A stretch of 64,000 nucleotides of DNA, taken from assembly GCF_014642075.1 (NCBI RefSeq), contig NZ_BMIK01000007.1, forward strand, positions 1 to 64,000. Direction: 5' to 3'. The first letter of the stretch is position 1; every line of letters starts with the position of its first letter. Shown here in pieces: positions 2,756 through 23,767 of the stretch. Under the pieces are notes generated by a model. It was not told the origin of the DNA and ran no database searches. It saw only the letters and a list, made by a program, of their open reading frames with translations. Source of the DNA: Parapedobacter defluvii. Lineage in GTDB: Bacteria > Bacteroidota > Bacteroidia > Sphingobacteriales > Sphingobacteriaceae. The translations under genes and the position numbers were made by a program.

Positions 2756-3989
2756 TTGCGTTATCCTTATTATTACGTTTGTTGTTATTCACCTTTTCAC
2801 GTTGCTCCTCACGGAACGTGATTAAAAACACCACCAATACTGCTGCGGCTATGCCTGCCGGGATAAGCCAAACCCCTTGCCAGTCAAACTGCACACCCCC
2901 TCCTTTTGGAAGGGCAAACCGTCCGGTGACCAGCCCCGAGACATACGACCCGATCAGCATACCCACCCCATACGTTGCGAAGGTAATTAAACCCTGTGCG
3001 GCACTACGGATACGCTCGCCCGCAGCACGGTCTACATAGATCTGCCCGGTTACAAAAAAGAAATCATAGCATACCCCGTGCAACAGGATGCCCACGTACA
3101 ACATGCCCATCCGACTGTCCGCATCGCCGTAGGCAAACAGCACATAACGGATAACCCAGGCGACGATCCCTACGGCAAGCATCGCTTTGATACCAAACCG
3201 TTTAAAAGCAAGCGGTATCACCAGTAAAAACAGAAATTCCGAGAGCTGTCCCAGGGTCATCTTTCCCGCTGCATTCGTGATGCACAGGTCGTTCAGAAAC
3301 GGATTGGCAAAACTGTAATAAAAAGACAGTGGAATACAGATTGCCAGCGAGGAAAGAAAAAACACCAGAAAGGAACGCTTCCTGAACAATACCAATGCCT
3401 CCTTCCCCAGCACAGAACCTAAGCTGGCACCTTCCGTGCGGTCCGGGGGCGTATCGGGAAGTGTAAAACTCACCAGGCCGAGCACTGCAGAGGACCCCGC
3501 CGCCAAGTAAAACAGTGATGCGCTGCTTTCCATGCCCAAGTAACCCAGCAGCAGTCCGGCAACGATCCAGCCTACCGTGCCAAATACCCGGATCAGGGGG
3601 AACTCCCTGCCTCCATCCCTAAGTTGCCGAAAGGTAACGGAATTCATCAGGGCCATGGTGGGCGCATATAGCAGCGTATACAGCAGCAATAGCCACCAGA
3701 ACGGCCCATAATCGTCAGTACGCGCCAGCAATATCAATACGCCCGCACCCAGCAGGTGCAGCACGCCCAACACCCGCTGGGCCGCGAAATAACGGTCGGC
3801 CACCAACCCCACAAACACCGGCGATAGCGCCGCGGCAAGGGAAAAGTTGGCATAGGCCGATCCGACTTGCACAGCGCTTGCGCCGAACCGATCGAATAAA
3901 TAGGTTCCCAACGTAACGTACCAGGCACCCCACGTGAAAAATTCCAAGAACATGGCCAGCGAAAGCCGGAATCGCAGCGATATCGGCAT
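2742..3989 (-). CDS. MFS transporter, nucleoside/H+ symporter-like (NupG/XapB type)
   Basis: A 415-residue inner-membrane protein with about twelve hydrophobic segments. The N-terminus (FRLSLAMFLEFFTWGAWYVTLGTYL) and the segment APTMALMNSVTFRQL are characteristic of the nucleoside:H+ symporter branch of the MFS. In Bacteroidota polysaccharide loci such proteins are often misnamed nucleoside permeases and probably carry sugars or sugar derivatives. It is 9 bp from the quinoprotein gene upstream and overlaps the Gfo/Idh gene downstream. A charged Asn/Lys-rich tail (about residues 400-415) ends the protein. It is likely the importer for a product made in the periplasm by the upstream enzymes. 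Confidence 0.87.
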   Translation of the reverse strand: MPISLRFRLSLAMFLEFFTWGAWYVTLGTYLFDRFGASAVQVGSAYANFSLAAALSPVFVGLVADRYFAAQRVLGVLHLLGAGVLILLARTDDYGPFWWLLLLYTLLYAPTMALMNSVTFRQLRDGGREFPLIRVFGTVGWIVAGLLLGYLGMESSASLFYLAAGSSAVLGLVSFTLPDTPPDRTEGASLGSVLGKEALVLFRKRSFLVFFLSSLAICIPLSFYYSFANPFLNDLCITNAAGKMTLGQLSEFLFLLVIPLAFKRFGIKAMLAVGIVAWVIRYVLFAYGDADSRMGMLYVGILLHGVCYDFFFVTGQIYVDRAAGERIRSAAQGLITFATYGVGMLIGSYVSGLVTGRFALPKGGGVQFDWQGVWLIPAGIAAAVLVVFLITFREEQREKVNNNKRNNKDNANEAR

Positions 3990-6668: not shown

Positions 6669-6669
6669 A

Positions 6670-8061
6670 CTAATTTCCCGATCGCCTGACACAGATGAGA
6701 TGCGTCTTCGGTTTATTGATCTCGTAAATTTTCGAGATCAGTATATCCACCTGATCCTGATAGGCTTCCCTCACCTCCCGGTGCATGAGCAATGCATATT
6801 GATTCCGCCTTCCGGTCAGCCATTTATCATGGGGAATCGCCGCGTTCAATGCCTCCATAGCAACCTTGTCATCCGCATACAGCAAACCTCTCTTTTCGAA
6901 AAAATAATATTGGATCCACGTATAATCCCTTAATTCCCGTTCAATCCGCCACCTTCTCTCGTTGAGATGCATGATAGCCAGGGCCTGTTGATACTGCGGT
7001 GTCCACGGTATCTCGGCCAGATTAATCCCTTCTTCCAGCTCTTTGCGGGTCCACGAACCAATCCGTACACTGTCGATCAACACTTCGTAAATACCTTCAT
7101 CCAACCCTTTCACTTTCAACGCTTCGTTATTCATCTCTTTCATGAATGGAACGATCCTCAACGCATCGGATTGCCTCGCATTGTATTCACCGTTTAGGGG
7201 TATCGTGTCAATGGGGTATGGCAATGAATTGGCAAGATATGCAAATGTCAGTTGATGTGCATCGCGCGTGATGTTCGAAATGGAGCAGTTTTGCTGAGCC
7301 GATGCCCTTGCTTTGCGGGCATCGATCTCGACCTGGGCAACCGGCTGATTGGCCAAACCCTGTGCCTTTAAAAACAGGTATGCCATGACCATGTGCCCGT
7401 CATTGTCGGGGTGTATGCGGTCGAAGCCCGACAAACTGAATGCCGGATCGATGCGCTGGAACTTTCTGTTCAAATCAGTCATGGGCTCATTGAAATCAAA
7501 GAACCCCCAACCGTTGTCCCGGGCTGACTGCCGTTGATAGTCGACAATCTTTTGCATGGCGCTGTGCTTCCCCACAAAAGGCTCTGTCTCCCTCACAGAC
7601 GTCTCATCGTAGGGTGTGCTACCCAACAGCGAAACCTCAACATCCGGCAGGGCCTGCAGCCGCCGTTCCATTTGCTGATAGTTGCGATCGGATTCCGCCA
7701 CTATTTTTTCTCCAAAAACACCGGGATCTTCCGTAAGGTACTCGCTATAACCCGAATCGTTCATTCCGAATATGAGGAACAGCTTGGTTGGCTTTCTGGC
7801 CAAAACGTCAGCGTCAAGCCGCTTCTCCATCTCCACAACCCGGTCTCCGCCTATGCCGCCGTTATAAATGGTTACTGCCCTATCGGGGAACCGCGTCATA
7901 TAATACAACCAGATAAATGAGTGATAGCGCCCTCCGTCGGTTATGCTATTGCCCAAAAAAGCGACTCGGTCTCCATCCGAAAACGGAGAAAGCGATTGCC
8001 CCAACGCCGAAAACGCTACAAGAGAAAGAAATAGTAGTCCGATTCCTGTTCTTCTAATCAT
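6670..8061 (-). CDS. Secreted SGNH/GDSL-family hydrolase (probable carbohydrate esterase)
   Basis: A 463-residue exported protein with a Sec signal (IGLLFLSLVAFSALGQ). The SGNH blocks are clear: block I GNSITDGG, block II GGIGGD, block III GMNDSG, and block V DRIHPDNDGH with the Asp-x-x-His dyad. The catalytic domain takes roughly residues 25-235. The remaining 230 residues contain no domain I recognise. Within a polysaccharide locus the likely job is removing acetyl or similar esters from the glycan, directly after the GH78 gene (16 bp) and before the quinoprotein gene (1 bp). The substrate is inferred from context only. Confidence 0.85.
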   Translation of the reverse strand: MIRRTGIGLLFLSLVAFSALGQSLSPFSDGDRVAFLGNSITDGGRYHSFIWLYYMTRFPDRAVTIYNGGIGGDRVVEMEKRLDADVLARKPTKLFLIFGMNDSGYSEYLTEDPGVFGEKIVAESDRNYQQMERRLQALPDVEVSLLGSTPYDETSVRETEPFVGKHSAMQKIVDYQRQSARDNGWGFFDFNEPMTDLNRKFQRIDPAFSLSGFDRIHPDNDGHMVMAYLFLKAQGLANQPVAQVEIDARKARASAQQNCSISNITRDAHQLTFAYLANSLPYPIDTIPLNGEYNARQSDALRIVPFMKEMNNEALKVKGLDEGIYEVLIDSVRIGSWTRKELEEGINLAEIPWTPQYQQALAIMHLNERRWRIERELRDYTWIQYYFFEKRGLLYADDKVAMEALNAAIPHDKWLTGRRNQYALLMHREVREAYQDQVDILISKIYEINKPKTHLICVRRSGN

Positions 8062-8076
8062 ACGGTATCCAATTGA

Positions 8077-10776
8077 TTAATGTATACGATCCGCCACAAG
8101 AAACCGATAGGAACCTGATCCTAAATGGAAATCCCCATTCCCGGTCCGGCTATCGATGCCTATAGGCATTCCGGTATTACTGTCTATGGCCGAAACAACA
8201 TCTTCCAGCCGGACGGTAGCCTGGGTATTCGGGGGGATCGTAAGGTCGAATGCCACCCGGTCATTGATCCGATTCCAGGAAGACACGATCTCTCCGCCGG
8301 GTGAATCGTATATCGCCCGGAAACTGTCCATTCCTTTTACAAAATGCGGCCTGACAACAAACGTACGGAATCCCGGGTTTTGTTCATCTGCATTAATTCC
8401 TCCCAAAGCTTTATAAAACCAGGCACTGATCTCTCCGAACATCACATGGTTTCTCGACAGTGTTTCTGTCTCTATCTTCCAGGTTTCATAGAGCGTCGTC
8501 GCCCCATTTCGGATCCACCATCCCCAGGAAGGATAGGTCTGCTGGGTGGCTACTTCAAAAGCCAGATCCGCATACCCATTATCGCTCAATGCACCCAAAA
8601 GGGTCTTTGAACCAAGCAGGCCGACATCCAAATGCTTATCGTCTGCGACGACCCGCTTAGCCAGATTGTCGGCAACCTGCTGCCTGTACGCTTCCGGAAC
8701 GACTCCCCAATACAACGGCCCGCTTAATTCAGCCTGGCTCCCGGTTGCATAAATCGCCTTCTCTTTATCCAGGAACTTATCGTTGATGGCTTGCTTGATT
8801 TTATGTGCCACCTGTCCGTAAGCCACCGAGTCCTGCCGATGTCCCAATAGGCCTGCAGTTTTTGATAAAATCAACGCATCCTGATAATAATACAGGGAGA
8901 TCAGCAATTGCTTATCTGCAATGGTCTTATAAGGCACCCAATCTCCCAATCCCCAGTCCGTCAAGCCTTCCGGGGCGATTGAGGTGACGTAATCGACGAA
9001 GCGCTTCATGCTGGAATAATTTTGTAAAAGTGCACGCGCATCTCCGTAGTACCGATACAATGTCCAAGGAATGATGACTGTCGAACTGGTCCAATCCACA
9101 CCGTTCCCCCAATCGTAACCCCACGTAGAGGTGGGGATAATTGCCGGCAAAACACCGTTTTCGAGCTGTGCATCGCGATGATCCGCCAGCCATTTTTCAT
9201 AAACCGTGATGGCATCGTAGTTGAACAAGGCTGCCTCAATCGCAATGTGTGCATCGCCCGTCCAGCCGTTCTTTTCACGCTGCGGGCAATCGGTGGGATA
9301 ACCGTGGAGATTTGACAGGTAAGAACGATTGGTTGCTGCCCAGATTTTGTTCACCAATTCATTGGACGACTCAATCTTTCCAACGGGACGGACATCGCTG
9401 TTGATCCGGTAAGCCGTTAGGTTGTTGGCCCGTAAATCGACAGGGCGGTCTGCAGTAACTTCGACATACTGGAACCCCTTGTAATTGAACCGCGGCATAA
9501 ATTCTTCAAGCCCTTCGCCTTTCAATATGAAGATATCCGTCTGAAAAGGGTCCAATCCGTTCTTTTGGTCGCTATAGATGTCAATCGTTGATTGGTCTAC
9601 ATGATTATGGTGATCGATGGTTTCCCCGTGTTTAATCCGAAAGGTGGTCCCCCGCTCTCCCTGCACACTGAGCTTGGTTATGCCGGCAATATTTTCGGGC
9701 AGCTTATACAGATAAGCTGAGTCACTGATCTTCGTAATTTCAAGCTGCCCGAACTTATCGACGATCCGGATCGGTTCCAGCGCCTGGGCAATGATCCGTG
9801 GCGAGGGTGCCTCCCGGCCGATGGCCGGATGCCACCCCGCATCGTCAAATGAAGATAGGTTCCAACCCCTCTGTTCCTTTCGCGCATCGTAGTGTTCCCC
9901 CGTATAGATGCTGTTGAAAATAATCGGGCCCAAGGCCGTTTTCCAGGTAGCGTCCGAATAGATCTTTTCCGAGCTACCGTCGGCATAATCCACGTGTATT
10001 TCCATGCAGAAAGCGGGTCTGTCCCGCCAAACCGCTTTATGGAAATCCCATTCGGACCACGATTGGTGATTGTACCACCCGTTGCCCAAAATCATGCCGA
10101 TGGCATTTTCTCCTTTTTGAATCACTCCGGTGACATCAAGCGTTAAATAAAGGTTCCGCTTGTCGAAACGGGTAAACATCGGATTCAGCAGTCCGTCGCC
10201 GATTTTTCGTCCGTTTACGGATAGCTCAAATAAACCTGCTGCAGCAATATAAGCCCTTGCCGACACCACTTTCTTACCCAATGAAACTACTTTCCTGAAA
10301 TAGGCTGCCGGTTGAATCGCCGTGTCTCTTACATCGGTGATCCATTGTGCCCGCCAGGGTTCGTCCAGCTTGCCCGTCTCGAAATAAGCAAATGTCCGCG
10401 CGGCCGACTTTGTTCCGTTCTCATCCCATGTGGAAACCATCCAATAGTAACGCGTTCGCGGCTTCAATTTTTTCCCATTGTATGCCACCAGCGTCCTAGC
10501 TCCGGAGACCTTACCACTGTGCCACGCGTTTCCAACGCCCTTTTGCAATAAACTGACGTCGTCACTGACGATGATTTCATATGCGCCCTGCTGAAATTGA
10601 GCGTCATCCGTCGCTATTTTCCAGGCCAAACGTGGTTTCTCCGCATCAATTCCGATGGGATCGGTTAAATGTTCACAGGTCAGTGAGGTTGGGAAAAAGG
10701 ATTGGCCATATGCACCGGCTGTAAGCAGCAACAAAACAATCCCCGCATAAAACGTTGTACAGCACTTATCGATCAT
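8077..10776 (-). CDS. Secreted alpha-L-rhamnosidase, GH78 family
   Basis: An 899-residue exported enzyme (signal ending TAGAYGQ). It has the GH78 layout: an N-terminal beta domain (HLTDPIGIDAEKPRLAWKI), a Bac_rhamnosid_N-like region (YFRKVVSLGKKV...ISVNGxKIGDG-type, about 155-320), the (alpha/alpha)6 catalytic domain with the family motif DCPQREKNGWTGDA (about residue 500), and a C-terminal beta domain. It should release terminal alpha-L-rhamnose from a polysaccharide or glycoconjugate in the periplasm or outside. It is the only standard glycoside hydrolase of the locus, so it is the best pointer to a rhamnose-containing substrate. Confidence 0.93.
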   Translation of the reverse strand: MIDKCCTTFYAGIVLLLLTAGAYGQSFFPTSLTCEHLTDPIGIDAEKPRLAWKIATDDAQFQQGAYEIIVSDDVSLLQKGVGNAWHSGKVSGARTLVAYNGKKLKPRTRYYWMVSTWDENGTKSAARTFAYFETGKLDEPWRAQWITDVRDTAIQPAAYFRKVVSLGKKVVSARAYIAAAGLFELSVNGRKIGDGLLNPMFTRFDKRNLYLTLDVTGVIQKGENAIGMILGNGWYNHQSWSEWDFHKAVWRDRPAFCMEIHVDYADGSSEKIYSDATWKTALGPIIFNSIYTGEHYDARKEQRGWNLSSFDDAGWHPAIGREAPSPRIIAQALEPIRIVDKFGQLEITKISDSAYLYKLPENIAGITKLSVQGERGTTFRIKHGETIDHHNHVDQSTIDIYSDQKNGLDPFQTDIFILKGEGLEEFMPRFNYKGFQYVEVTADRPVDLRANNLTAYRINSDVRPVGKIESSNELVNKIWAATNRSYLSNLHGYPTDCPQREKNGWTGDAHIAIEAALFNYDAITVYEKWLADHRDAQLENGVLPAIIPTSTWGYDWGNGVDWTSSTVIIPWTLYRYYGDARALLQNYSSMKRFVDYVTSIAPEGLTDWGLGDWVPYKTIADKQLLISLYYYQDALILSKTAGLLGHRQDSVAYGQVAHKIKQAINDKFLDKEKAIYATGSQAELSGPLYWGVVPEAYRQQVADNLAKRVVADDKHLDVGLLGSKTLLGALSDNGYADLAFEVATQQTYPSWGWWIRNGATTLYETWKIETETLSRNHVMFGEISAWFYKALGGINADEQNPGFRTFVVRPHFVKGMDSFRAIYDSPGGEIVSSWNRINDRVAFDLTIPPNTQATVRLEDVVSAIDSNTGMPIGIDSRTGNGDFHLGSGSYRFLVADRIH

Positions 10777-10789
10777 TTTATTCTTTCAA

Positions 10790-11920
10790 TTAGTTGCCGC
10801 CCACCGCCGTTGCATCAAAATGGTCGGGCGTATTACAGATCCACAAAAACTCAAAGCCCAATGCTTTCTGATTCATTATTTCCTGCCGCACTACGTCCTT
10901 CAGGTCTTTCTCCTCAATACCTGACGGCAGGAACCACAGTGTCCCATTTAATTTCGGGCGGGTCAGTTTGCCTGCACCGGGGTCTTCGGGTACCATCTCC
11001 AAATACGCCTGATACGCTTCGTAATTTGCCTTTCTTTTGGAAAGATCTACCTCCTGTCCGTCAATGTTCTGAATCGTCAGCGAACTGTGTTCTTCCATTG
11101 GATTCATCAACGGATAATAGCCCCAGTTCACAATACCAGTTCCATATTCGGCAGCCAATTCCAGCTTCTGCTTCAACCAGTCAATCTCGGTAAAAGCCCA
11201 TGCCCGTTGGAAGTCTTTTTCCATCTGCAGGGCATGAGCCCAATCCCGAGCTACGACCTGCCCTGTTTCCACATTTAACCAAAATTCTTTCCCTGCTTTC
11301 CTGCATGCGTTGGCAAAGGCCTCAAAAAAAGGCCTCCTGTCCTCAATCGTGAAAAAAGAAAGGTGCTCGGCACCGGAGTCCTGCAGCATCAGAATGTCAA
11401 TACCGGCATCTTTCATGGTGTGATACCACCATTCCTCATATTCTTTGGGTTCCAAATACTTAAAACCGCGCAGACTCTGCTTGTCCAGCAGGAAAAACGG
11501 TGAAATGGTTACCTTGGATTGGGGTGCCACCTGGTGGCACTTGTCCACGATCGATTTCCATATGGTCCGCCAATAGGCAGACTGTTCCAGGTCGTCATTT
11601 TCTATCGGGTTGATCTCATTATTCAGGTACCAGCCCCAAAATGAATCGTGATTTCCATACTTTTTATGGTATTCTTCGATGTAACGGTCGCTTTTTGCAG
11701 TAAGTTCGGCCACGGATTTCTTTCGGTAGAGATCTCCTCCCCGCAGATCGATGTCACAGATCACTTTCATATCCAACTCATCGGCAACCGAATAGATTAA
11801 CTCCAAAACATCCGTTTCATTCTTGCGGGCTGTGTCTCCTTTTTCAGAACCACAGGACGGCTGCACAATCAGCAATGCGCACAACAGCCATACTCCACCG
11901 ATTTTTTTTCGTAACATCAT
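10790..11920 (-). CDS. DUF4434-like exported protein, candidate glycoside hydrolase (copy 1)
   Basis: A 376-residue protein with a lipoprotein-type signal (LLCALLIVQPSC). It is a TIM-barrel-like protein closely related to its upstream neighbour. Conserved features are WGWYLNNEINP (a Glu after Asn, as in GH-A-type acid/base residues), SPFFLLDKQ, DILMLQDSGAEHLSFF, and LNVETGQV (a second candidate Glu). The segment normally forming the first strand and helix of DUF4434 proteins (GTLWFLPSG ... ALGFEFLWICNTP) sits at the C-terminus, so the barrel looks circularly permuted. The function is unknown. Its place between SusD and GH78 suggests action on the same glycan. Confidence 0.75.
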   Translation of the reverse strand: MMLRKKIGGVWLLCALLIVQPSCGSEKGDTARKNETDVLELIYSVADELDMKVICDIDLRGGDLYRKKSVAELTAKSDRYIEEYHKKYGNHDSFWGWYLNNEINPIENDDLEQSAYWRTIWKSIVDKCHQVAPQSKVTISPFFLLDKQSLRGFKYLEPKEYEEWWYHTMKDAGIDILMLQDSGAEHLSFFTIEDRRPFFEAFANACRKAGKEFWLNVETGQVVARDWAHALQMEKDFQRAWAFTEIDWLKQKLELAAEYGTGIVNWGYYPLMNPMEEHSSLTIQNIDGQEVDLSKRKANYEAYQAYLEMVPEDPGAGKLTRPKLNGTLWFLPSGIEEKDLKDVVRQEIMNQKALGFEFLWICNTPDHFDATAVGGN

Positions 11921-11962
11921 TGTAATTAATTATTAACTCGTTTATCTTAAATAGAACATGGG

Positions 11963-13120
11963 TTACCTTTCCGCCACTATCGCCCATTCCATATTGGCCG
12001 GTGCATTAACAATCCATAACATATCGAAGCCCAATGCCGCCTGCTCATCTATCTGCTCCCTGATGGCATTTTCCAGTGCTTCTTCTGACCATCCTTCATA
12101 CATCACCGGTAACCACCATAAGGTTCCCCGCATGAGGGGCTTTGTCTGTTCGGGTGATTCGACAGGTTGATCTTTCACCTGTTCATAGTATGTTTTGTAG
12201 GAACGGTAGCTGTCGCTGCGGAGCGATGCCGGCAGCTCATTGCTCAGATAAGGCCCCGGATTTACCGTCGGCACCATAAAGGGATAGTACCCCCAGTTGA
12301 CAATGTTTGTGCTGTATGCCGCAGCAAGCTCCAGTTTCTGAGCCAACCACGCTGTGGGGGTATACACCCAATTCTGGGTACCTTCGCGTTCTGCGGCTAC
12401 CGCTTCCTGCCAATCGTTCGCATCCACTTCTCCGCTTTCCACATTTAGCCAAAGTTCGCTGCCCGCCTGATCACAGGCATTTTTAAATGCCTGGAAAAAC
12501 GGGCGGCGATCCTCCAGTGAGAAAAAGCTCAGGTGTTCCGCTCCGGAATCCTGAAGCATTAAAATGTCGATACCGGTGTGGGCCAATGTTTTGGCCCACC
12601 ACCGTTCGTAATCAAGCGGCTCTAGAAAATCGAATCCACGGTGCTTTTCCCTATCCATGATAAAGAAGGGCGAAATGGTCACCACACTTTCGGGAGCCGT
12701 TTCCTTGCAGGCATCTACGGCCGACTTCCACACGGTTCTCCAGAAACCGGATACCTCGGTTTCTTCGGGCTTTAGTGGATTCAGCTCGTTGTTTATGTAC
12801 CAACCCCAGAAAGATTTGTATCCTCCGTACCGTTTATGGAATCGTGGGATATACGTCCGGTAATGAGCTGCCACTTCATCCGTGGTATACTGTGTAAACA
12901 ACTCACCACCACCCATATTCAGGTCTGCCACTACACGCATGCCTTTTTCTTCAGCGATGGAATAAATCATGCGGAGTACATCGATTGTGTTGTTTTCCTC
13001 AGCGGGTTTCGGCCCTACTACATTCGGACCGGCTACCTCATTACTGCAGCACAGCGTCGTACCCAGCACAAGCAGGGGCATCAAACAAATCCCTCCGACC
13101 AGTCGGCTCATTCTTTTCAT
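11963..13120 (-). CDS. DUF4434-like exported protein, candidate glycoside hydrolase (copy 2)
   Basis: A 385-residue lipoprotein (LLVLGTTLCC before SNE). It is a paralogue of the next gene with the same motif order: WGWYINNELNP, SPFFIMDRE, DILMLQDSGAEHLSFFSLEDRRPFF, LNVESGEV, and a C-terminal GTLWWLPV ... ALGFDMLWIVNAP unit. The ATG at 13120 is preferred over a TTG at 13126: it overlaps the SusD stop by one base (TAATG), indicating translational coupling. The paired candidate acidic residues fit a retaining glycoside hydrolase, but no activity is established for either copy, and they may instead be surface glycan-binding proteins. Confidence 0.75.
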   Translation of the reverse strand: MKRMSRLVGGICLMPLLVLGTTLCCSNEVAGPNVVGPKPAEENNTIDVLRMIYSIAEEKGMRVVADLNMGGGELFTQYTTDEVAAHYRTYIPRFHKRYGGYKSFWGWYINNELNPLKPEETEVSGFWRTVWKSAVDACKETAPESVVTISPFFIMDREKHRGFDFLEPLDYERWWAKTLAHTGIDILMLQDSGAEHLSFFSLEDRRPFFQAFKNACDQAGSELWLNVESGEVDANDWQEAVAAEREGTQNWVYTPTAWLAQKLELAAAYSTNIVNWGYYPFMVPTVNPGPYLSNELPASLRSDSYRSYKTYYEQVKDQPVESPEQTKPLMRGTLWWLPVMYEGWSEEALENAIREQIDEQAALGFDMLWIVNAPANMEWAIVAER

Positions 13121-15294
13121 TACCAACCCGGATTTTGGTTCATACGGAAATCCGGGATAATTGACACATCGGTAATCGGTATCGGGAACACCAGGAACTT
13201 ATCGTCCCAAGCATTCCGGCGTTCTGTCACGAACCGGGAGTACGTATAACTGGCCGAGCCACCTCCCTGATCTCCGCCACCTACTCGCACCAGCTCAAAA
13301 TCATCAAACAAGCCTTTACCCCCTGCAGGCCACCAGGTGAAGATATCAGCAGACGTACTGTTGGGCCCCGTGGTGAACCGGACTTTTTGCTGTTTCAAAC
13401 CGTCTTCGGGAAGGGCCTGCGCCAGAACTTCGTCTCCACCGTAGTTTCTTACTCCCACATAGCCGGTTTCTTCCTGCACCATCATGAGCAACGATACTTC
13501 GTAGGTGGTGCTGGGTGTAAGGCCGTTTATTGTGGCCCATACGTGTCCGCCATCCGAAATCTGAACGACGTTACTGCTGGTATGTCCGTCGATCGCAATA
13601 ACTTCAGCTCCCGGATAAAACGTCCATCCGTCGGTACCCGATTCAAAACTTGCGTTGTCTATATTGATCGTGCTCGGTCCGGCATTCCCACCGGTCTTCC
13701 TGATTTCCATACCGGTAACCAGTTTGTCCGTCTCATGCAGTATCTTCCACCGTCTGACATCCCAGAACCGGTGCTCCTCCCATACCAATTCAACCCTGCG
13801 CTCCCTATGGATACGCTCACGCATCTCTTCTTTGCTCAATCCCAGGGGAAGATTTGGCATGTTCACACGATTACGTATCGTATTTATCGCTTCATACACC
13901 TCGCCCGTCGGCCCGTTGGCTTCGTTTGCGGCTTCCGCCAGATTCAGATACAGTTCGGCCAGCCGGTATTTCTTAAATCGTGCGGAAGATATCTGGTTAA
14001 TCGCCAGCTTCGGATCAATGAACTTCCGCAGGTAATAACCCGTATGTGTATTGATCCGGTTGGGCGGCGACTTGATAAGCTGATCGGCTCCGCCGACAAA
14101 CGTTTCTACCGTGTGTACTTTACCATTGATATTATCGTACTGTGCGCCGTTGAACCATACCGTTGCATAAAAACGGGGGTCCCTATTCACATAGGGCTGC
14201 TGCTCATCATATCCTGAATTGGGATTGATGATGGGCTGCAGGTGGTCCGCGTCACGGTAACCTGTGATGGCAGGCTCGCCCGTACTTTGCATGTCATAGC
14301 TATCCACAAGCTCCTGCGAGGGGGTAGCTCCCAACATCCACGATCCTTCTTTGCTGGGCAGGCCCGTAGTTGACAGGGGAATGTCAAAACCCTTGATCTC
14401 AAAAATCGTTTCCCGGTCACGGGGAGAGGCACTGATATCCGAAGTATTCAAAAAATAATCTCCATAATCATCCGCAAGCGCATAGCCACCCGATCCGGTC
14501 AGCGCGGCTAACCCTTCTTTGGATGCTGTTGCCGCAGCAGTCCACTTTGACACATCATTCTGTGGGTTCCACAAGGGGCTGGCATTATACAGCAGGGCTT
14601 CGGATTTCAGCATGTACGCAACTGCTTTGGTAAACCGACCACGCTCAGATTCAACGGAAATCCGCATCGGAAATGCCGTACTGGCGATTACCCTGTCGCT
14701 TTCTGCAACGATAAAATCAATACATTCCTGGAAATTGGGGCGTATCAGTGCGGTATAATCAAAAGCTGGGTCGAAAGGATTGGTCACAACCGGCATCGGA
14801 CCGAATTGCTTGATCAACTCGAAATAGAAGAACGCACGCAGCAACGTTGCCTCGGCAATTAATCTTGCCTTTTTTTCGTCATTGGCAAACTGCACATCGT
14901 TGATATAATGCAAAAAGACATTGGCATCCCGGATGCCCGCCCAGAATGTTGTGTAGCGATCCTGTCCACGACCGGCACTGCCACCCTGTGCCAGGGGATT
15001 AAAACTAGGAGTCAGGCTGCCAATGTTCCATGCAGACGGCATATTGCCTGAAAAATTCCCTACCTCGGCATCTTTCGCTTCATCGGTAACGCCTGCCAGA
15101 AATGCCCACTGATTGTAGTGGTCAAAATAGGTGGGAACGGAGAGATAGACCGTATTCAGATAGGCCTCGGTTTGTATCTCATTTTTGAATATATCCTCTA
15201 ATGACATCCGGCCGTCAGGCGTTATGTCCAAGGGGTCGTTCTTACATGCTGCAAGAAAAATGCAAGAAAGGACCAACAATAGCTTCTGTTTCAT
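13120..15294 (-). CDS. SusD/RagB-family glycan-binding lipoprotein with inserted CBM-like domain
   Basis: A 724-residue outer-membrane lipoprotein (LLLVLSCIFLAAC before KNDPLD). The SusD helical scaffold is clear: DEAKDAEVGNF near the N-terminus, ARLIAEATLLRAFFYFELIKQFGPMPV, SARFKKYRLAELYLNLAEAANEA and MRERIHRERRVELVWEEHRFWDVRRWK. It is about 150-200 residues longer than usual. The excess is one block, about residues 535-680 (DNASFESGTDGW ... GLFDDFELVRV), resembling a CBM4/9-type beta-sandwich placed before the final SusD segment (NAWDDKFLVFPIPITDV). The ATG at 15294 begins the lipoprotein signal and lies 5 bp from the SusC stop. It should capture glycan for the SusC pore. Confidence 0.92.
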   Translation of the reverse strand: MKQKLLLVLSCIFLAACKNDPLDITPDGRMSLEDIFKNEIQTEAYLNTVYLSVPTYFDHYNQWAFLAGVTDEAKDAEVGNFSGNMPSAWNIGSLTPSFNPLAQGGSAGRGQDRYTTFWAGIRDANVFLHYINDVQFANDEKKARLIAEATLLRAFFYFELIKQFGPMPVVTNPFDPAFDYTALIRPNFQECIDFIVAESDRVIASTAFPMRISVESERGRFTKAVAYMLKSEALLYNASPLWNPQNDVSKWTAAATASKEGLAALTGSGGYALADDYGDYFLNTSDISASPRDRETIFEIKGFDIPLSTTGLPSKEGSWMLGATPSQELVDSYDMQSTGEPAITGYRDADHLQPIINPNSGYDEQQPYVNRDPRFYATVWFNGAQYDNINGKVHTVETFVGGADQLIKSPPNRINTHTGYYLRKFIDPKLAINQISSARFKKYRLAELYLNLAEAANEANGPTGEVYEAINTIRNRVNMPNLPLGLSKEEMRERIHRERRVELVWEEHRFWDVRRWKILHETDKLVTGMEIRKTGGNAGPSTINIDNASFESGTDGWTFYPGAEVIAIDGHTSSNVVQISDGGHVWATINGLTPSTTYEVSLLMMVQEETGYVGVRNYGGDEVLAQALPEDGLKQQKVRFTTGPNSTSADIFTWWPAGGKGLFDDFELVRVGGGDQGGGSASYTYSRFVTERRNAWDDKFLVFPIPITDVSIIPDFRMNQNPGW

Positions 15295-15298
15295 GATC

Positions 15299-18200
15299 TT
15301 AGAAAATAAAGTTAAGGCCAAAATTGTAAAGTCTCGATATGGGGTACGTGAATATGCTGGTCATTTCCGGATCGAAGTCTTTCACCGGCAACCGATCCCA
15401 CGTCAACAGGTTGATCCCGTTGGCATAAATGCGCAGGCTCCGGGCACCGATCCGCTTAGACCAGTTGCTTGGGAACGTATAACCAACTTCTACGTTCTTC
15501 AGCCGTAAGTAGCTCCCATCGTTGATGAAGAACGAATTTTCCATTTCATTGGGATTTGTCTGCGTGGTCAGCCTCGGATAACGGATCGGGGCGCCGCTGG
15601 CAGCCCGTTCTTCCGTCCAGCTTTCCAAATGCCGGTCACGGAAATTAGATCCCATGGCAAAAATTCCGTAGCCGCCGTAATAGTTATGGACATGAGTTAC
15701 CCCCTGCAGCAGCACGCTTACGTCAATCTGTTTGTATACGACATTGACCGCTGCTCCGAATTGATACTCCGGAATGGACGAATAGCCAATCGGCGAGATG
15801 TCTTTCTCATCTACTACCCCGTCTTGGTTCACGTCCACATACTTGAAATCTCCCGGGCGGGATTCGTGCCCCGGAACGTTCTGTTTCGGGGAATTCGCGA
15901 TATCCTCTTCATCCCTGAAATAGCGGTCAACGATATAACCGAAATTCTGGCCGATCCGGTAGCCGGTTTCGCGATACTGATAAGCATAGCTGTCATCCAA
16001 CATGGGCTCATCGGCAAAAACCTGCCTGTTAGTCGCGTAGTTCAGATTCAGCTTACCCAATATGGATAAATCCTGATTGATTGCTTTCCGGTAATTCAAT
16101 TCGATTTCATATCCTTTGTTCTCTACCACACCGATATTCACGGGAGGCAATACCGATACGGGCAGCCCGTTCAATACGGGTATCGTTCCACGGTTCCGCA
16201 GAATGTTATCCCTTCTTTCCTTGAAAACGTCAACGGTCAGGTCAAGTGCGTTAAACACCTTGACATCCAACCCGATGTTATATTTATTGGAGACTTCCCA
16301 CTGCAATGCTTCGTTTTTCAACAGGTTGGTCCACACCAATTGGCCGAGGCCCAGGCTCGACGAATAACCGCCCCCGCTTACCTGCACATCATCCAGGTAA
16401 AGGAACCGCCGTGAACCGATCCGGTCATTACCGACCCTGCCGTAAGAAGCACGTATCTTCAGATTATTCAGGAAGTCAATATCTTCCATAAACTGTTCGT
16501 TCGAAATCAGCCATGCAGCAGAAACTGCCGGGAAAAAACCAAATCGACGGCCTTTTTTGAACTGTTCCGACCCGTTATATCCCATATTGAATTCGGCAAA
16601 GTACCTCGAATCGTAACCGTAAGTAACGCGGCTAGCAATACCCCGCAGGTTATACGGAAGCTGCGCGTCAATGATGTTCTTTTGCTGCTGATACATCAAA
16701 AGCCCCGTGACCGTGTGGCGGCCAAACGAATTGGCGTAATTCAGATAACCCTGAAAATTGGATAAGGTGGTGAAATACCGTGCTCCGAAAAGATTCAGCG
16801 AAGTATTCCGGCTATCTCCCATATTCCGGAAATAGACTGTGTCCCTTCCGTCGGCTGTCGGTTCAACCACCTGCACCAACTTAAGGTATTCACGGCTTGC
16901 CATCATGTTGTTGGTTGTCTTCGAGTCAAAAGACATCCATCCCTTGGCAGAAAGTCCTTCGACTAAAAAGCCCAGGTCCTGTTCCAAACCAAAGGTTGCC
17001 ATGATATTATTGCGCGTTTGCTGCACGTAACCGGACCGGTTCAATGAGCCATAAGGCGGATAGAATCCACCTTGCCACGTCACCACTTCCCCATCAGGAG
17101 TCACCGGACCGGGTATTGTCGCATTTTGGTCAACAGTCATCTGCGCCAGGATGTGCATCGCCGGAGAAACTGTCGACAAAAAGTCAAGATTATTGTAGAT
17201 ACCCGCTGGCATATTCTGCTTCTCCAGGTAACCACCGAGGTTCAGCATAGCCGTTAGCGACTTGGTTAATTGGATGTCAATATTGGACCGGAAATTATAG
17301 CGGTCCAGTTTGAAGGAAGGATCGTAGCTCAGGTCTTTCTCAGTGTTGAACATCCCGCCCTGTTTAAGATAACCCGCGTTCACGAAATATTTTACGCGTT
17401 GCCCGGCCCCCGAAACGTTGAGGTTATAACGCTGTTGCGTGGAATAATCACGCATCAGGATACTTTTCCAATCGGTATTCGGGAACTGCACCGGATCATC
17501 GCCCAGCCGATAATGTTCCAGGATTTCTGCCGAGTAGGCATCCCCAAGCCCGTCGTTATGTTGCATCAGGTTTCTTGTCATCGCATAATCATAGGAGCTG
17601 GCCAGCGACGGGAACCGCGGGAAATCCTGCGCACTCACTTCGGTCGTAAAGTTGATTTCCGGGATCTCCGATTTCCCGCGTTTCGTGGTTACGAGGATAA
17701 CACCGTTAGCACCCCTGACCCCGAAAATAGCCGTAGAGGAGGCATCTTTAAGAATCGTGATGGATTCGATTTCATTGGGATCGATGTAGGTAAGATCCCG
17801 CTCTATACCATCTACGAGGATTATGGGACTTTGTGCATTGATTGTACCCTGCCCACGGATAAACAATTGAGTGATGTCTCTGCCCGGTTCTCCGCTGCGC
17901 TGGATTGCCGTCAGTCCCGGCAACCGTCCCGCCAGTGTCACCGCCAGGTTAGCGGCCGGGCTCTGCTTGATTTCCTTGGTGGACACCGAAGCAATGGAAC
18001 CTGTCAACGTCTCTTTCTTCTGGGTACCATAGCCGACGATGACAACTTCATCCAACGACGACTCATCTCTTTGCATGACCACATCCAGCGGTGCATCGAT
18101 CACTGCCCCAATCTCGACAGTGAGATAACCGACGGCCGAAAACCGGAGGATATCACCCTTTTTTGCCGCAATGGAATACGCCCCTTCCGCATTGGTCGAG

Positions 18201-18439
18201 GTACTTGCAGCCGCACCCACCACAGCAACCGTTACCCCCTCTATCGGCAAAGCTGACTCGTCGGTAACCTTGCCCGTAGCCCCAACTTGTGCTACATCGC
18301 TGAATGTAGCGTGCAGAACGTCCCCATAAACCATTGAACCCGTAAACAATGGCCCTAATAATACCGAAAGCAGCGCTGCTAATACGCGCTTATTGCTTAT
18401 CATCGGTAACAAAACATTAAGTATGTAAATACCTTTCAT
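15299..18439 (-). CDS. SusC/RagA-family TonB-dependent outer-membrane glycan transporter
   Basis: A 1046-residue outer-membrane receptor. The order is a signal peptide, a carboxypeptidase-regulatory-like domain (TGKVTDESALPIEGVTVAVVG, about 55-130), a TonB-box-like segment (DEVVIVGYGTQKK), a plug domain (LFIRGQGTINAQSPIILVDGIERD ... SITILKDASSTAIFGVRGANGV) and a 22-strand-type barrel ending in a C-terminal aromatic residue (YNFGLNFIF). It pairs with the SusD gene 4 bp downstream to form the energised uptake complex. A hairpin and T-run lie in the 154-bp gap to the upstream permease gene, so its expression may be set separately from the epimerase/permease pair. Confidence 0.95.
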   Translation of the reverse strand: MKGIYILNVLLPMISNKRVLAALLSVLLGPLFTGSMVYGDVLHATFSDVAQVGATGKVTDESALPIEGVTVAVVGAAASTSTNAEGAYSIAAKKGDILRFSAVGYLTVEIGAVIDAPLDVVMQRDESSLDEVVIVGYGTQKKETLTGSIASVSTKEIKQSPAANLAVTLAGRLPGLTAIQRSGEPGRDITQLFIRGQGTINAQSPIILVDGIERDLTYIDPNEIESITILKDASSTAIFGVRGANGVILVTTKRGKSEIPEINFTTEVSAQDFPRFPSLASSYDYAMTRNLMQHNDGLGDAYSAEILEHYRLGDDPVQFPNTDWKSILMRDYSTQQRYNLNVSGAGQRVKYFVNAGYLKQGGMFNTEKDLSYDPSFKLDRYNFRSNIDIQLTKSLTAMLNLGGYLEKQNMPAGIYNNLDFLSTVSPAMHILAQMTVDQNATIPGPVTPDGEVVTWQGGFYPPYGSLNRSGYVQQTRNNIMATFGLEQDLGFLVEGLSAKGWMSFDSKTTNNMMASREYLKLVQVVEPTADGRDTVYFRNMGDSRNTSLNLFGARYFTTLSNFQGYLNYANSFGRHTVTGLLMYQQQKNIIDAQLPYNLRGIASRVTYGYDSRYFAEFNMGYNGSEQFKKGRRFGFFPAVSAAWLISNEQFMEDIDFLNNLKIRASYGRVGNDRIGSRRFLYLDDVQVSGGGYSSSLGLGQLVWTNLLKNEALQWEVSNKYNIGLDVKVFNALDLTVDVFKERRDNILRNRGTIPVLNGLPVSVLPPVNIGVVENKGYEIELNYRKAINQDLSILGKLNLNYATNRQVFADEPMLDDSYAYQYRETGYRIGQNFGYIVDRYFRDEEDIANSPKQNVPGHESRPGDFKYVDVNQDGVVDEKDISPIGYSSIPEYQFGAAVNVVYKQIDVSVLLQGVTHVHNYYGGYGIFAMGSNFRDRHLESWTEERAASGAPIRYPRLTTQTNPNEMENSFFINDGSYLRLKNVEVGYTFPSNWSKRIGARSLRIYANGINLLTWDRLPVKDFDPEMTSIFTYPISRLYNFGLNFIF

Positions 18440-18593: not shown

Positions 18594-19838
18594 TTAAGAA
18601 TCTTTTCGCCTATACCCCTGCATTGCAAAAAAGATGATATAGAGATAGCATCCCATCGGCAACAGGAATGCAGTGGTCCAATCGAAACGATCGATCAGCA
18701 ATCCTTGGAGGTAGGGAATAACGGCACCCCCGGCAATTGCCGACGAAAGCATGCCAGATGCCCGCGTTGCATAACTGCCCAGGCCGGCGATAGACAGCGA
18801 AAAAATGATGGCAAACATCACGGAATTGCAAAGTCCGACGGCGATCATCGACCAAACGGCTATGCTCCCCGACGACAGGACGGAGAGTACGATAAGGAAT
18901 GTGGAGACTATTGCTGCCCACCGGAGCACGACATTGGGCTGGGCCAATTTAAGCACAAACGATCCGATCAGACGGCCAACTAGCATTCCGCCCCAATACA
19001 AAGACACGTAACTATTTGCCAAGTGCTCTTCGATGTGCAATGCATCTGCAATGTAGTTGGTCAAGAACGTACCGATGGCCACTTCGGCCCCTACATACAT
19101 GAAAATGCCCACCATGCCGAATTTCAGGTTGCGAAAGGCGAAGATACTTTTACGCGGTTGCGTGTCATCCGCGCGATCTGGTTGGCCGGGCCGACTGCCC
19201 ACCGCCGGCAGGGCCAGCTTATACACCACCAGCGCAATCAGGAAGAGTACACCTCCGATGGCTAAGTATGGCCTGCTTACCGCATCCGAAGAAGCGGCTG
19301 AGGCCGAAATTTCCGATAAAATGAAATGCGCACCGAAGAGCGGAGCCAAGGTTGTGCCCAATGACCCCACCCCCTGTATCAATGCAAGCCGGGAAGATGC
19401 TGTCTCCGGCTTTCCCAGCAATGTGATGTAGGGATTGGCCGCTACCTGGAGCAACACGATGCCGATTGCCAAAATGAACAGAGCACATAAGAAAAGCGAG
19501 TATTGGTGCCACCAAGAAGCAGGAAAAAACAACAATGCGCCGACACCGGCCGTGGTAAATCCCGTTACCATTCCACGCTGATACCCGATCCGCTCCACGA
19601 TCTTCCCGGCAGGAATCGACATCACCGCATAGGTCAGGAAAAAGTAGAACTGCACCAGCGAAGATTCGGCATAACTCAATGTAAACCCGGTTTTGAAAAA
19701 TGGTACCAACGTATCATTCAGACACGTTACAAATCCCATCATGAAATACAGTACCGCAAGGGTTACCAGCGCCGGCATATAGCGCTTACTCCCTTGTTCT
19801 GCCACTAAGGCTGTATGGTCTACCGGTATGAGCGCCAT
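18594..19838 (-). CDS. FHS-family sugar MFS transporter (glucose/galactose/fucose permease-like)
   Basis: A 414-residue, roughly 12-segment inner-membrane permease. Hallmarks of the FHS branch are LYFMMGFVTCLNDTLVPFFK at the first helix, LQVAANPYITLLG, and SSRLALIQGVGSLGTTLAPLFGA. It should import a monosaccharide by proton symport. Its start lies 1 bp after the AGE epimerase stop, and it points in the same direction, so import and epimerisation are probably co-expressed. The usual partners of this pair in Bacteroidota are mannose- or N-acylhexosamine-type sugars, but the specificity is not readable here. Confidence 0.92.
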   Translation of the reverse strand: MALIPVDHTALVAEQGSKRYMPALVTLAVLYFMMGFVTCLNDTLVPFFKTGFTLSYAESSLVQFYFFLTYAVMSIPAGKIVERIGYQRGMVTGFTTAGVGALLFFPASWWHQYSLFLCALFILAIGIVLLQVAANPYITLLGKPETASSRLALIQGVGSLGTTLAPLFGAHFILSEISASAASSDAVSRPYLAIGGVLFLIALVVYKLALPAVGSRPGQPDRADDTQPRKSIFAFRNLKFGMVGIFMYVGAEVAIGTFLTNYIADALHIEEHLANSYVSLYWGGMLVGRLIGSFVLKLAQPNVVLRWAAIVSTFLIVLSVLSSGSIAVWSMIAVGLCNSVMFAIIFSLSIAGLGSYATRASGMLSSAIAGGAVIPYLQGLLIDRFDWTTAFLLPMGCYLYIIFFAMQGYRRKDS

Positions 19839-19839
19839 T

Positions 19840-21039
19840 TCAGTGATCTTGAATAATCAAATTTTGCTGTTTCGTCCGGATTGCTTCCATGGTCTTCCAA
19901 AGCTGAAATAGCCCCCGGGGTACATGAAAACATCCTTTCCATTTGCCGCCCTTTAGGGTCAGCAGCTTCTCGCCCCTGCGGTCCAGGTATCCGAACCATT
20001 CGCCGAACTCCGGGTCCGGAAAATGCAACCATGTATAGTCGTGCACTTTTTTGTACCATTTTGCACACCGTTCATCGCCGGTATGCAAAAATCCCTTCGC
20101 CAGGCTGATCATCGCCTCAATATGCACCCACCACAGTTTCTGGTCCCATTCGAGCTGCTGAGGAGGTTTCCCCAGTACGTCAAGGAAATAAAAAATCCCA
20201 CCATGCGTTTTATCCCATCCGTATTCGATGAGTTCGACCGTCACATCCGTCGCCTTCTTCATCAATTCCACATCGCTGGAACGTATTGCCAAATCCATGA
20301 TGAACCACATCGCCTCCAAGCCATGTCCGGGGTTGACAAGCCGCCCATCAAACGAATCCGAGAACTGACCATCGTTGGCAATATTCTCCAGAATGACTCC
20401 TTTCTCAGCCCAGTAAAATTTTTCCATCACGGTTTGAACACCCGCTTGTACCGTATCTTCAACCAGCACAGGGTCCAGCAAATGCTCGATCTCCAACACC
20501 AGGTTACATAAGATCATCGGGAGGGCAAAGTTCTGAAGCGGCCGGGTAGCCGGATCCTGTTTGTTGTATTTCCCTTTAGGATCGGTACGACGTGCCAATA
20601 TATTATAAAATGTATTTTTGGCAATTTCCAAATATTCTTCGTCTCCCTTTGCTTTGTAAAGCTGTCCGAACGCCATCGTTGCGAAGCAATCCGAAAAGAT
20701 ATTATAGGCCCCTGTCAATGGCTTGCCTGCCTGATCCAAGGAAAAATACCAACTGCCTTTCTCGTCCCTCCCATGGGCTTTTAAAAACGCAGCACCCTTC
20801 AGTGCAAAATCAAGCCATTCCTGCTTGCGTTCCACTTCGTTGTAAAGCATCGAAAAACACCACACCTGCCGAGCCTGCAACCAAATAAATTTATCCGTAT
20901 CGAACACCTTTCCCTGCCGATCCAGGCAGGTAAAGTATCCACCATATTCAGTGTCTGCCGAATTTTTCAACCAGAATGGAACCACATTATCTAAGAGCTG
21001 GCTTTTATATAACCTCGCTAGCGCGTCTGCATCAATCAT
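19840..21039 (-). CDS. AGE-family epimerase/isomerase
   Basis: A 399-residue cytoplasmic enzyme of the N-acylglucosamine 2-epimerase family, an (alpha/alpha)6 barrel. Typical motifs are WLQARQVWCFSMLYNEVE near the N-terminus, RLVNPGHGLEAMWFIMD with the catalytic-type His in the middle, LWWVHIEAMISLA, and FGEWFGYLDRRGE near the C-terminus. The family includes N-acylglucosamine 2-epimerase, cellobiose 2-epimerase and sugar isomerases (mannose, sulfoquinovose). Which one applies cannot be settled from sequence. It heads the minus-strand operon, divergent from the ROK regulator at 21368, which may sense its substrate or product. Confidence 0.92.
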   Translation of the reverse strand: MIDADALARLYKSQLLDNVVPFWLKNSADTEYGGYFTCLDRQGKVFDTDKFIWLQARQVWCFSMLYNEVERKQEWLDFALKGAAFLKAHGRDEKGSWYFSLDQAGKPLTGAYNIFSDCFATMAFGQLYKAKGDEEYLEIAKNTFYNILARRTDPKGKYNKQDPATRPLQNFALPMILCNLVLEIEHLLDPVLVEDTVQAGVQTVMEKFYWAEKGVILENIANDGQFSDSFDGRLVNPGHGLEAMWFIMDLAIRSSDVELMKKATDVTVELIEYGWDKTHGGIFYFLDVLGKPPQQLEWDQKLWWVHIEAMISLAKGFLHTGDERCAKWYKKVHDYTWLHFPDPEFGEWFGYLDRRGEKLLTLKGGKWKGCFHVPRGLFQLWKTMEAIRTKQQNLIIQDH

Positions 21040-21367: not shown

Positions 21368-22603
21368 ATGGCTACAAATACCAATTTTTTCGAGGAATTG
21401 CATAGCACGGAACTCACTGGCGTTGCCTATAAAAATGTTTGGCTTAAAAAGCAAATGTTGACTCATTTCGCAAATGAGGGCAATGCTACCGTGGCTGACC
21501 TAAGTAGAACACTCAACACCAGCATCCCTAAAACCAGCGAACTGGTAAATGAACTCCTAGCAGATGGTTTGGTAAAAGATTACGGTAAGACCGACTCGGG
21601 TGTAGGCCGCAAACCCAATCTTTATGGCCTGGAACCCGCCTCTGCCTTTTTTGTGGGCGTCGAAGTGAAGAACCTCCATGTCAATATCGGCCTAATGGAT
21701 TTCAGGCGAAGCCTGGTGAAGACTTCCAGGGGAATCCCTTATTTATTGAACAATACCGAGGAGTCACTGCATACATTATGCACCATTGTCTGCGACTTTA
21801 TCAATACCAGCAGTGTACAGCTTGAAAAAATCCTCGGTATCGGCATCAACCTTACCGGCCGTATCAACTACCGGACCGGCTACAGCTATAGTTTTTTCAA
21901 TTTCCACGAAGACCCGCTCAGCAAGATCATCGAATCGGTTGTCGGTATCCATACGTATCTGGAAAACGATTCCCGGGCAATGGCTTATGGCGAATTTTGC
22001 AGCGGCGGCGTCAAAGACGAAAAGAACGTTTTGTTTGTTAACCTCGATCACGGCATCGGCATGGGAATCATGGTAGGCGGACAGCTTTATTACGGCAAAT
22101 CAGGTTTTGCGGGAGAGGTCGGCCATATTCCGATGTTCAATAACGAGATCCTATGCCACTGCGGCAAAAAAGGTTGCCTCGAAACGGAAGCTTCCGGGGC
22201 GGCCATTACCCGTATTTTCAAGGAAAGACTCGCCGAAGGGGCAAGCAGTATCGTCACCAATAAGCGCACTAACCCTGAAGATATCGTGCTCGAAGACATC
22301 ATCGAAGCGGCCAATAACGACGATACCCTTGCCATTGAAATCATTACGGAAGCAGGTGAGAAAATCGGCAAAGGCATGGCCACATTGGTCAACCTCTTCA
22401 ACCCCGAACTGATCATTCTCGGCGGCAGCCTGTCTGCAACGGGCGACTATATCAGGCTCCCGATAAAAAATGCACTCAATAAGTATTCACTCAGCCTGGT
22501 CAATAACGATACCCAACTGAGCATCTCCCAATTGGGCGATAAAGCCGGCATCATCGGGGCTTGCCTGCTCGTAAGGGATCGGCTGCTGGCCATCACTTCT
22601 TAA
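21368..22603 (+). CDS. ROK-family transcriptional regulator (NagC/Mlc-like)
   Basis: A 411-residue repressor-type protein. The N-terminal winged helix-turn-helix (about residues 20-85, NATVADLSRTLNTSIPKTSELVNELL) precedes a ROK sugar-kinase-like domain. The ROK zinc motif is present as CHCGKKGCLE (about 262-271), as is the signature region LFVNLDHGIGMGIMVGGQLYYG. Proteins of this kind release DNA when a sugar binds. The gene is divergent from the AGE/FHS/SusCD operon and is its likely regulator. Its 3' end converges with the amidohydrolase gene, leaving 14 bp and no visible terminator. Confidence 0.92.
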   Translation: MATNTNFFEELHSTELTGVAYKNVWLKKQMLTHFANEGNATVADLSRTLNTSIPKTSELVNELLADGLVKDYGKTDSGVGRKPNLYGLEPASAFFVGVEVKNLHVNIGLMDFRRSLVKTSRGIPYLLNNTEESLHTLCTIVCDFINTSSVQLEKILGIGINLTGRINYRTGYSYSFFNFHEDPLSKIIESVVGIHTYLENDSRAMAYGEFCSGGVKDEKNVLFVNLDHGIGMGIMVGGQLYYGKSGFAGEVGHIPMFNNEILCHCGKKGCLETEASGAAITRIFKERLAEGASSIVTNKRTNPEDIVLEDIIEAANNDDTLAIEIITEAGEKIGKGMATLVNLFNPELIILGGSLSATGDYIRLPIKNALNKYSLSLVNNDTQLSISQLGDKAGIIGACLLVRDRLLAITS

Positions 22604-23724: not shown

Positions 23725-23767
23725 TTTGTATAAATTTAAGTTCTCAATTGCATCAGTGATTTCCCTC

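Follow-up and report, generated by a model that had tools for sequence, protein, structure and literature searches.

The two tandem genes between positions 10790 and 13120 of the window, i.e. the whole stretch of 64,000 nucleotides from Parapedobacter defluvii that was analysed, appear to encode paralogous DUF4434 (beta/alpha)8 barrels that are circularly permuted by two units. Each chain would run from a signal peptide through helix 2, strands 3-8 and helix 8 to a linker, followed by strand 1, helix 1, strand 2 and the stop; we put the probability of this reading at about 0.8. The two proteins are 47% identical, and their genes share one reading frame with a spacing of 42 bases. For gene 1 the open reading frame list gave a TTG start at 13126, and the ATG at 13120, which overlaps the stop codon of the preceding SusD homologue, is preferred here. 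The parts of the two genes are as follows.

11963..13120, minus strand: gene 1, permuted DUF4434 protein, 385 residues from the ATG at 13120
12173..12982, minus strand: gene 1 body, helix 2 to helix 8 (strands 3-8), now N-terminal (order test with hidden Markov models (HMMs), BLASTP)
11978..12139, minus strand: gene 1 displaced unit, strand 1-helix 1-strand 2 with the preceding PLMR segment, now C-terminal
10790..11920, minus strand: gene 2, permuted DUF4434 protein, 376 residues
10955..11812, minus strand: gene 2 body, helix 2 to helix 8 (strands 3-8) (order test, model, BLASTP)
10814..10945, minus strand: gene 2 displaced unit, strand 1 (residues 326-329), helix 1 (337-353) and strand 2 (358-361)

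Both proteins match the Pfam family PF14488 (DUF4434) with 90.3 and 77.9 bits, above the 30-bit cut-off, with coverage confined to profile positions 59-278 and 58-279 of 283. A standard member carries the whole domain in linear order with the first unit at the N-terminus. In both window proteins this unit (strand 1, helix 1, strand 2) is C-terminal (GTLWFLP...GFEFLWICN and GTLWWLP...GFDMLWIVN; unit consensus GTLWxLP...LGFxxLWIxN), and judged by sequence genes 1 and 2 are a permuted DUF4434 variant rather than standard members. Linear profile searches perceive such proteins as N-terminally truncated; truncation or degeneration of the two genes is ruled out, as all parts are present. A search of NCBIfam gave no match for either protein.

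The order was examined against nine close relatives with the usual arrangement, referred to as sisters (loci L074, L075, L076 and L099-L104). BLASTP of the gene 1 protein against L075 returned two crossed segments, residues 48-323 with 94-366 (E 2e-93) and 317-381 with 23-83 (E 3e-14), and gene 2 against L074 likewise gave two crossed segments (E 7e-104 and 5e-10); identity over the body is 48% and 51%, respectively. An HMM of the unit, built from the nine sisters only, matched the C-terminus of gene 1 with E 2.3e-15 and that of gene 2 with 3.4e-10. The best of 4000 shuffled window proteins reached E 0.13, so that the C-terminal unit is not a chance match. Among the other permuted proteins described below the same HMM gave E 2.8e-14, 3.3e-12 and 2.2e-6, i.e. 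it was significant in five of six, always at the C-terminus. The first-pass annotation, which had placed the tandem pair at 10790-13120 and had located the missing DUF4434 unit at the C-terminus, is thus upheld on both counts, the latter by the crossed segments and the sister-only HMM. Its statement that the proteins start directly with the next helix needs correction, as a signal peptide precedes this helix. The circularly permuted DUF4434 proposed on these grounds gains support from the crossed order, from a total of six permuted genes and from a rotated barrel model.

The site of the rearrangement can be read from the junctions. The gene 1 linker KPLMRGTLWWL matches the start of the sisters after their signal peptide, (A/L)PLMRGTLWWL, the gene 1 tail NAPANMEWAI matches NTPALLEQAI of L075, and the new start DVLRMIY matches DVLESVY of the same protein. 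These three matches place the cut in the loop between strand 2 and helix 2, and the correspondence of permuted and normal forms spans nearly the whole chain. The pattern P-x-x-x-G-T-L-W is found at the linker in 6/6 permuted proteins (PLMRGTLWW in gene 1). The probable origin is a tandem duplication in which normal-order genes were fused in frame and then lost their outer ends, with a signal peptide now ahead of helix 2; the linker retains the segment preceding strand 1 in the sisters.

A profile scan of genome contigs with a single window protein found no relative; a two-row alignment recovered seven loci. Three of these, from two genomes, are permuted: L072 and L073 of Niabella drilacis, which are separated by about 11 kb and both possess a unit of their own, and L077 of a Bacteroidales metagenome-assembled genome (MAG) from water buffalo omasum, a tandem permuted pair (L077a and L077b) with genes at 4001-5146 and 5143-6234 that overlap in different frames. 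L074 (Planctomycetia MAG), L075 and L076 (Hydrogenedentota MAG) are close normal-order sisters; L075 carries the label Nitrospiraceae but came up in the phylum group of L076. The reading frame of L076 (2355-3299) is broken near the 3' end in the MAG. The seventh locus, L078, is a distant match (23%). The six further sisters, L099-L104, came from 68 genomes of L076's phylum group. Body and unit HMMs built from the six permuted proteins were applied to every reading frame of the collected loci and gave body-then-unit in 6 genes and unit-then-body in the 9 close sisters, with weak unit-then-body results in five more distant rows (L107, L109, L110, L112 and L115). Permuted copies were found in three genomes only: that of the window, Niabella drilacis and the Bacteroidales MAG. 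A false stop, or a read-through from gene 1 into gene 2, could mimic the rotated order through an error in gene boundaries or assembly, and the shared frame and short spacing of the two genes speak for such an artefact. With the same order in three genomes, a signal-peptide-like start ahead of each body, and counterparts that overlap in different frames (L077) or lie far apart (Niabella), this explanation is most improbable.

A rotated order in all family members, which the first-pass annotation had named as counting against its reading, did not turn up. A search for homologues with this order returned the six genes named above, from three Bacteroidota genomes and in one clade. In 301 genomes of the window's family, 72 DUF4434 matches lie above the cut-off (matches below it were not counted as members), and 70/70 outside the window genome are contiguous, spanning profile positions 1-17 to 275-283; together with the unit-then-body order of the nine sisters, these matches rule out rotation as a property of the whole family. 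No other match with the score or coverage of a permuted copy was found in the window's family (301 genomes), phylum (395) or genus (9), nor in the family of Niabella (294), the order of the Bacteroidales MAG (295), the class of L074 (148) or the phylum of L076 (68), where the counts include the centre genome and the samples may overlap; divergent permuted copies may have been missed. Among the weaker matches of the phylum sample, 6/6 checked loci outside the window genome (L064, L066, L067, L068, L069 and L071) are in normal order by eye or Pfam, and so is L065.

A tree of 35 rows was built from the bodies only, with the unit excluded. The six permuted rows form one clade (support 100/100) inside a 15-row clade (100/100) shared with the nine sisters, and the order label changes once on the tree, a count that 0/500 label shuffles matched. 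The remaining 29 rows, including a distant Pfam-type outgroup, are in normal order. As far as sequence comparison can tell, the rotated order is thereby shown to be a single derived event among normal-order relatives. The reverse polarity would make the rotated order the ancestral state and the normal-order DUF4434 proteins the outcome of a permutation; it found no supporting evidence in the analysis and is hardly credible against 29 normal-order rows that reach into the outgroup and permuted rows confined to one clade. The join of the permuted clade to L074, which would fix its place among the nine sisters, is weak (56/34), and the tree program issued a long-branch warning for L077_Bdales_a, L077_Bdales_b and the join of the group of this subfamily to its own sister group. 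Within the clade, support for joining gene 1 to the two Niabella genes is 95/90, and for joining gene 2 to the Bacteroidales pair it is lower (82/48); from these groupings, duplication of the gene after the permutation is likely, albeit not proven. As to the labels, 13 normal-order rows were assigned by a unit hit ahead of the body, and six without a unit hit (L105, L106, L108, L111, L113 and L114) were assigned by position and checked later, four by Pfam starts at 2-15 and L105 and L106 by eye. Outgroup rows L003, L012, L034, L036, L038 and L042 are places with a Pfam match over 1-282 or 1-283; L065 was assigned by Pfam (1-283) and L064, L066 and L068 by eye. The tree does not include the matching loci L107, L116 (partial), L086 and L098. 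The direction of the change is clear, and the Bacteroidales locus of the rotated pair even contains a DUF4434 gene in normal order: it lies at 218-1315 of L119, minus strand, about 10 kb from the pair, and matches Pfam positions 1-283 with E 1.1e-81. In a scan of viral contigs one distant match was found, at 4001-4561 of L126 in a 262-kb IMG/VR contig, covering Pfam positions 107-281 in the stretch read (E 1.3e-23).

Structure prediction supports closure of the rotated chain into an eight-strand barrel. The AlphaFold2 model of gene 2, computed from an 8-row alignment (predicted local distance difference test (pLDDT) 81.9, predicted template modelling score (pTM) 0.83), has barrel strands at residues 52-57, 94-99, 136-139, 176-181, 212-217, 262-264, 326-329 and 358-361, the last two corresponding to canonical strands 1 and 2. 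The predicted barrel is therefore complete and in the order 3-8, 1, 2 rather than the normal one; a model of the sister L075 (pLDDT 77.1, pTM 0.79) has its eight strands in the usual order. Two short extra strands of the gene 2 model (220-222 and 241-243) have counterparts in the sister that are also outside the barrel count. The best match of both models in the Protein Data Bank (PDB) is 4h41 (BT_0435): gene 2 aligns residues 31-310 to chain positions 120-366 (Z 17.4, 237 residues, root-mean-square deviation (rmsd) 3.6), and L075 aligns 34-358 to 58-366 (Z 26.5, 283 residues, rmsd 3.2), so that the first 62 positions of the 4h41 range are without a partner in the permuted chain when the order is kept. 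The Foldseek TM-score normalised by target is 0.54-0.55 for the permuted model and 0.72 for the sister. Alignments of the permuted model with many other complete barrels extend over residues of about 48-374 (Z 12-14), as expected of a closed eight-strand barrel. At the level of sequence, a PDB search with gene 2 found no chain up to E 1, gene 1 and the permuted profile retrieved 4h41 weakly, and the normal-order profile gave no useful match.

New termini on a barrel could allow swapping, and the C-terminal unit might accordingly complete the barrel of another chain, by domain swap or trans-complementation of the tandem products. The arrangement in the window, with adjacent genes in one frame and the tail of gene 1 directly preceding gene 2 on the DNA, would suit such a scheme. 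It is unlikely nonetheless: the single-chain model closes in cis with the pTM given above, and the widely spaced Niabella genes each carry their own unit.

Several observations weigh against the permuted single-chain barrel, or at least against parts of it. The unit of L077b matches the normal-order unit HMM only partially and with E 0.36, weaker than the best shuffle, and is detected only by the HMM that includes L077b itself. A Pfam search with the C-terminal fragments alone gave no DUF4434 hit. Moreover, the normal-order proteins L100, L105 and L106 also start at Pfam position 56-60, presumably because their N-terminal unit is too diverged for the profile; a late Pfam start is thus not diagnostic, and the case rests on the position of the unit, not on the Pfam gap. 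In the gene 2 model, the sister served as the analogy for not counting the two extra strands as part of the barrel, residues 1-34 and 370-376 are of low confidence, and the alignment comprises only eight sequences, so that the packing of the unit in cis depends on the six permuted ones. By eye, the lipobox is fair in L077a and L077b, lax in 3/6 (gene 1, gene 2 and L073) and absent in L072. Finally, the orientation that an anchor may impose on the barrel is a matter of topology plus inference.

Retaining glycosidases of clan GH-A are characterised by one glutamate at the C-terminal end of strand 4 and another at that of strand 7, and the permuted proteins have glutamates in both positions.

11615..11617, minus strand: codon of Glu102 in gene 2, after strand 4 (94-99), putative acid/base, conserved in 35/35 rows
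11267..11269, minus strand: codon of Glu218 in gene 2, after strand 7 (212-217), putative nucleophile, conserved in 35/35 rows

Tyr98, Gln180, Asp181 and Trp214 are likewise invariant in 35/35. Since both glutamates are kept throughout, the products of genes 1 and 2 are likely to be working glycosidases. The likeliest role, based on the conserved glutamates, the SusC/SusD pair and the rhamnosidase of the locus, is that of a surface or periplasmic glycosidase acting on a rhamnose-containing glycan. The putative enzyme would be exported, mostly lipoprotein-like and of the retaining clan GH-A type, with Glu102 as acid/base and Glu218 as nucleophile, and would act together with SusC/SusD and the alpha-L-rhamnosidase. 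The glycan might also contain N-acetylhexosamine, in view of the N-acylglucosamine 2-epimerase and the gluP-type transporter encoded in the locus. The epimerase of Niabella passes the NCBIfam cut-off (667.4) and that of the Bacteroidales MAG fails (332.7), which makes N-acetylhexosamine only a lead. Gene 1 directly follows susD with a stop/start overlap, the usual place of a surface glycan-binding lipoprotein, and a cysteine ends the signal peptide in 5/6 permuted proteins; a permuted but non-catalytic binding protein would fit both features. Such a role is doubtful, as both putative catalytic glutamates and Gln180-Asp181 are kept in 35/35 rows and the body retains 48-51% identity with normal-order relatives.

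In the five proteins with a cysteine at the end of the signal peptide, it is separated from the body by 8-21 residues.

11852..11920, minus strand: gene 2 signal peptide up to the cysteine, lipobox-like, a lax match by eye

The strand 2-helix 2 loop of a (beta/alpha)8 barrel lies on the catalytic face, so that a cut in this loop brings both new termini to that face. In normal-order proteins the N-terminus would enter from the opposite face. An N-terminal lipid would thus tether the permuted barrel by its catalytic rim, with the active site towards the outer membrane and SusC/SusD. It is conceivable, albeit on balance not what we expect, that the permutation was selected for turning the enzyme over, in that the lipidated N-terminus left the barrel bottom for the catalytic rim. 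If true, this would be a surface enzyme that works with its active site facing down and passes the glycan it has cleaved directly to SusC/SusD, in place of the spacer domains that other surface glycosidases have.

The genes that surround the pair constitute a polysaccharide-utilization locus, with adjacent susC and susD homologues next to carbohydrate-active genes. In the order of transcription on the minus strand, the SusC/SusD pair is followed by gene 1 and gene 2 and then by the alpha-L-rhamnosidase.

21368..22603, plus strand: ROK-family protein, probable regulator (profile match)
19840..21039, minus strand: N-acyl-D-glucosamine 2-epimerase (NF052547, 698.4 bits, cut-off 600)
18594..19838, minus strand: sugar transporter of the major facilitator superfamily (MFS; gluP family above cut-off, NagP-like below cut-off)
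15299..18439, minus strand: SusC/RagA TonB-dependent transporter (profile search)
13120..15321, minus strand: SusD homologue, stop codon overlapping the gene 1 ATG
8077..10776, minus strand: alpha-L-rhamnosidase (Bac_rhamnosid domains), which we take to be of the GH78 type
6670..8061, minus strand: GDSL-type esterase, locus member whose Niabella homologue adjoins a permuted gene

All six permuted genes lie in or near a conserved SusC/SusD locus with an alpha-L-rhamnosidase. The ROK-family gene, N-acylglucosamine 2-epimerase, SusC, SusD, permuted DUF4434 genes and rhamnosidase are conserved in the three genomes, with homologues of the MFS transporter and the GDSL esterase in 2/3. Identity between window and Niabella amounts to 74% for SusC, 72% for SusD, 66% for the rhamnosidase and 69% for the epimerase; for the Bacteroidales MAG the corresponding values are 30%, 23%, 49% and 33%. 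Patchy occurrence combined with a conserved locus suggests horizontal spread. In the Niabella locus L118, a YdjC-like gene (carbohydrate deacetylase family; 3103-3897, plus strand) separates the rhamnosidase from a permuted gene, and the rhamnosidase is followed by a DUF4855 gene (6972-8060, plus strand).

Compared with BT_0435 (4h41), the window proteins share the Pfam family by profile, the top structural match and the glutamates after strands 4 and 7. The difference is that 4h41 and normal-order DUF4434 proteins run from strand 1 to strand 8, whereas in the window proteins strands 1 and 2 come last and the exported N-terminus leads into helix 2. The sister subfamily has the same unit and the same conserved residues, and L074 is also found beside an alpha-L-rhamnosidase; in contrast to the window proteins, the unit is N-terminal and the signal peptides are, by eye, mostly of the ordinary kind. 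No SusC/SusD homologue was found in the stretches read for 8/9 sisters (L076 was not scanned).

Natural circular permutations often come to notice between proteins that have drifted too far apart for the event to be traced. Permuted glycoside hydrolases (GHs) include members of the alpha-amylase clan, to which GH70 and GH13_19 belong. GH13_19 MalS and GH70 glucansucrases have a circularly permuted domain order (PMC10223318). Their rotation is at the level of domains and does not concern DUF4434. Natural permutations and proposed routes, including duplication and deletion, are covered in PMC2395249, and in PMC8250049 circular permutation is only named as an evolutionary mechanism. A natural parallel is transaldolase B, the barrel of which (a triosephosphate isomerase (TIM) barrel) is rotated by two units relative to class I aldolase, the first unit of transaldolase being the third of aldolase (PMC2213659). 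The two-unit rotation is the same as in the window proteins. However, the enzymes are different, and the rotated and normal forms of DUF4434 are still about half identical, with a cut site and fusion linker located to a precision of a few residues; the duplication-fusion route and any gain from termini at the active-site rim become directly testable. A full-text literature search found no paper naming DUF4434 or PF14488 and, by title, none on the protein BT_0435, and no report of a permuted DUF4434 was found in a search scope without most subscription papers and preprints. TIM-barrel permutation as such is known. Within the searchable literature, a DUF4434 lineage with rotated order, about half identical to the normal form, seems to be new.

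Further features of the window concern the neighbourhood of the locus. The SusD homologue is long (733 residues), and past the last Pfam match, at residue 533, there is no Pfam hit; the stretch beyond this residue resembles an inserted domain, and a similar stretch is present in Niabella L073. A second SusC-like gene (27683-30645, minus strand) is broken into overlapping frames, 30046-30645 and 27683-30100, which match TIGR04056 positions 1-139 and 158-980, i.e. a frameshift, real or due to sequencing error. Next to this second SusC/SusD set, an amidohydrolase gene (22618-23859) is overlapped by the gene for a NagX-like membrane protein (23768-24937, minus strand), whose 131.2 bits fall short of the NCBIfam cut-off of 480. 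On the other side, the gene at 3999-6692 (minus strand) combines a glucose/sorbosone dehydrogenase domain with PKD, cytochrome c and CBM6 domains. Two Gfo/Idh/MocA oxidoreductases are encoded nearby, one of which resembles the glycoside 3-dehydrogenase BT_2158 family below the cut-off (474.5 bits vs 750), and an oxidative glycoside route encoded by these dehydrogenase and oxidoreductase genes beside the locus is possible.

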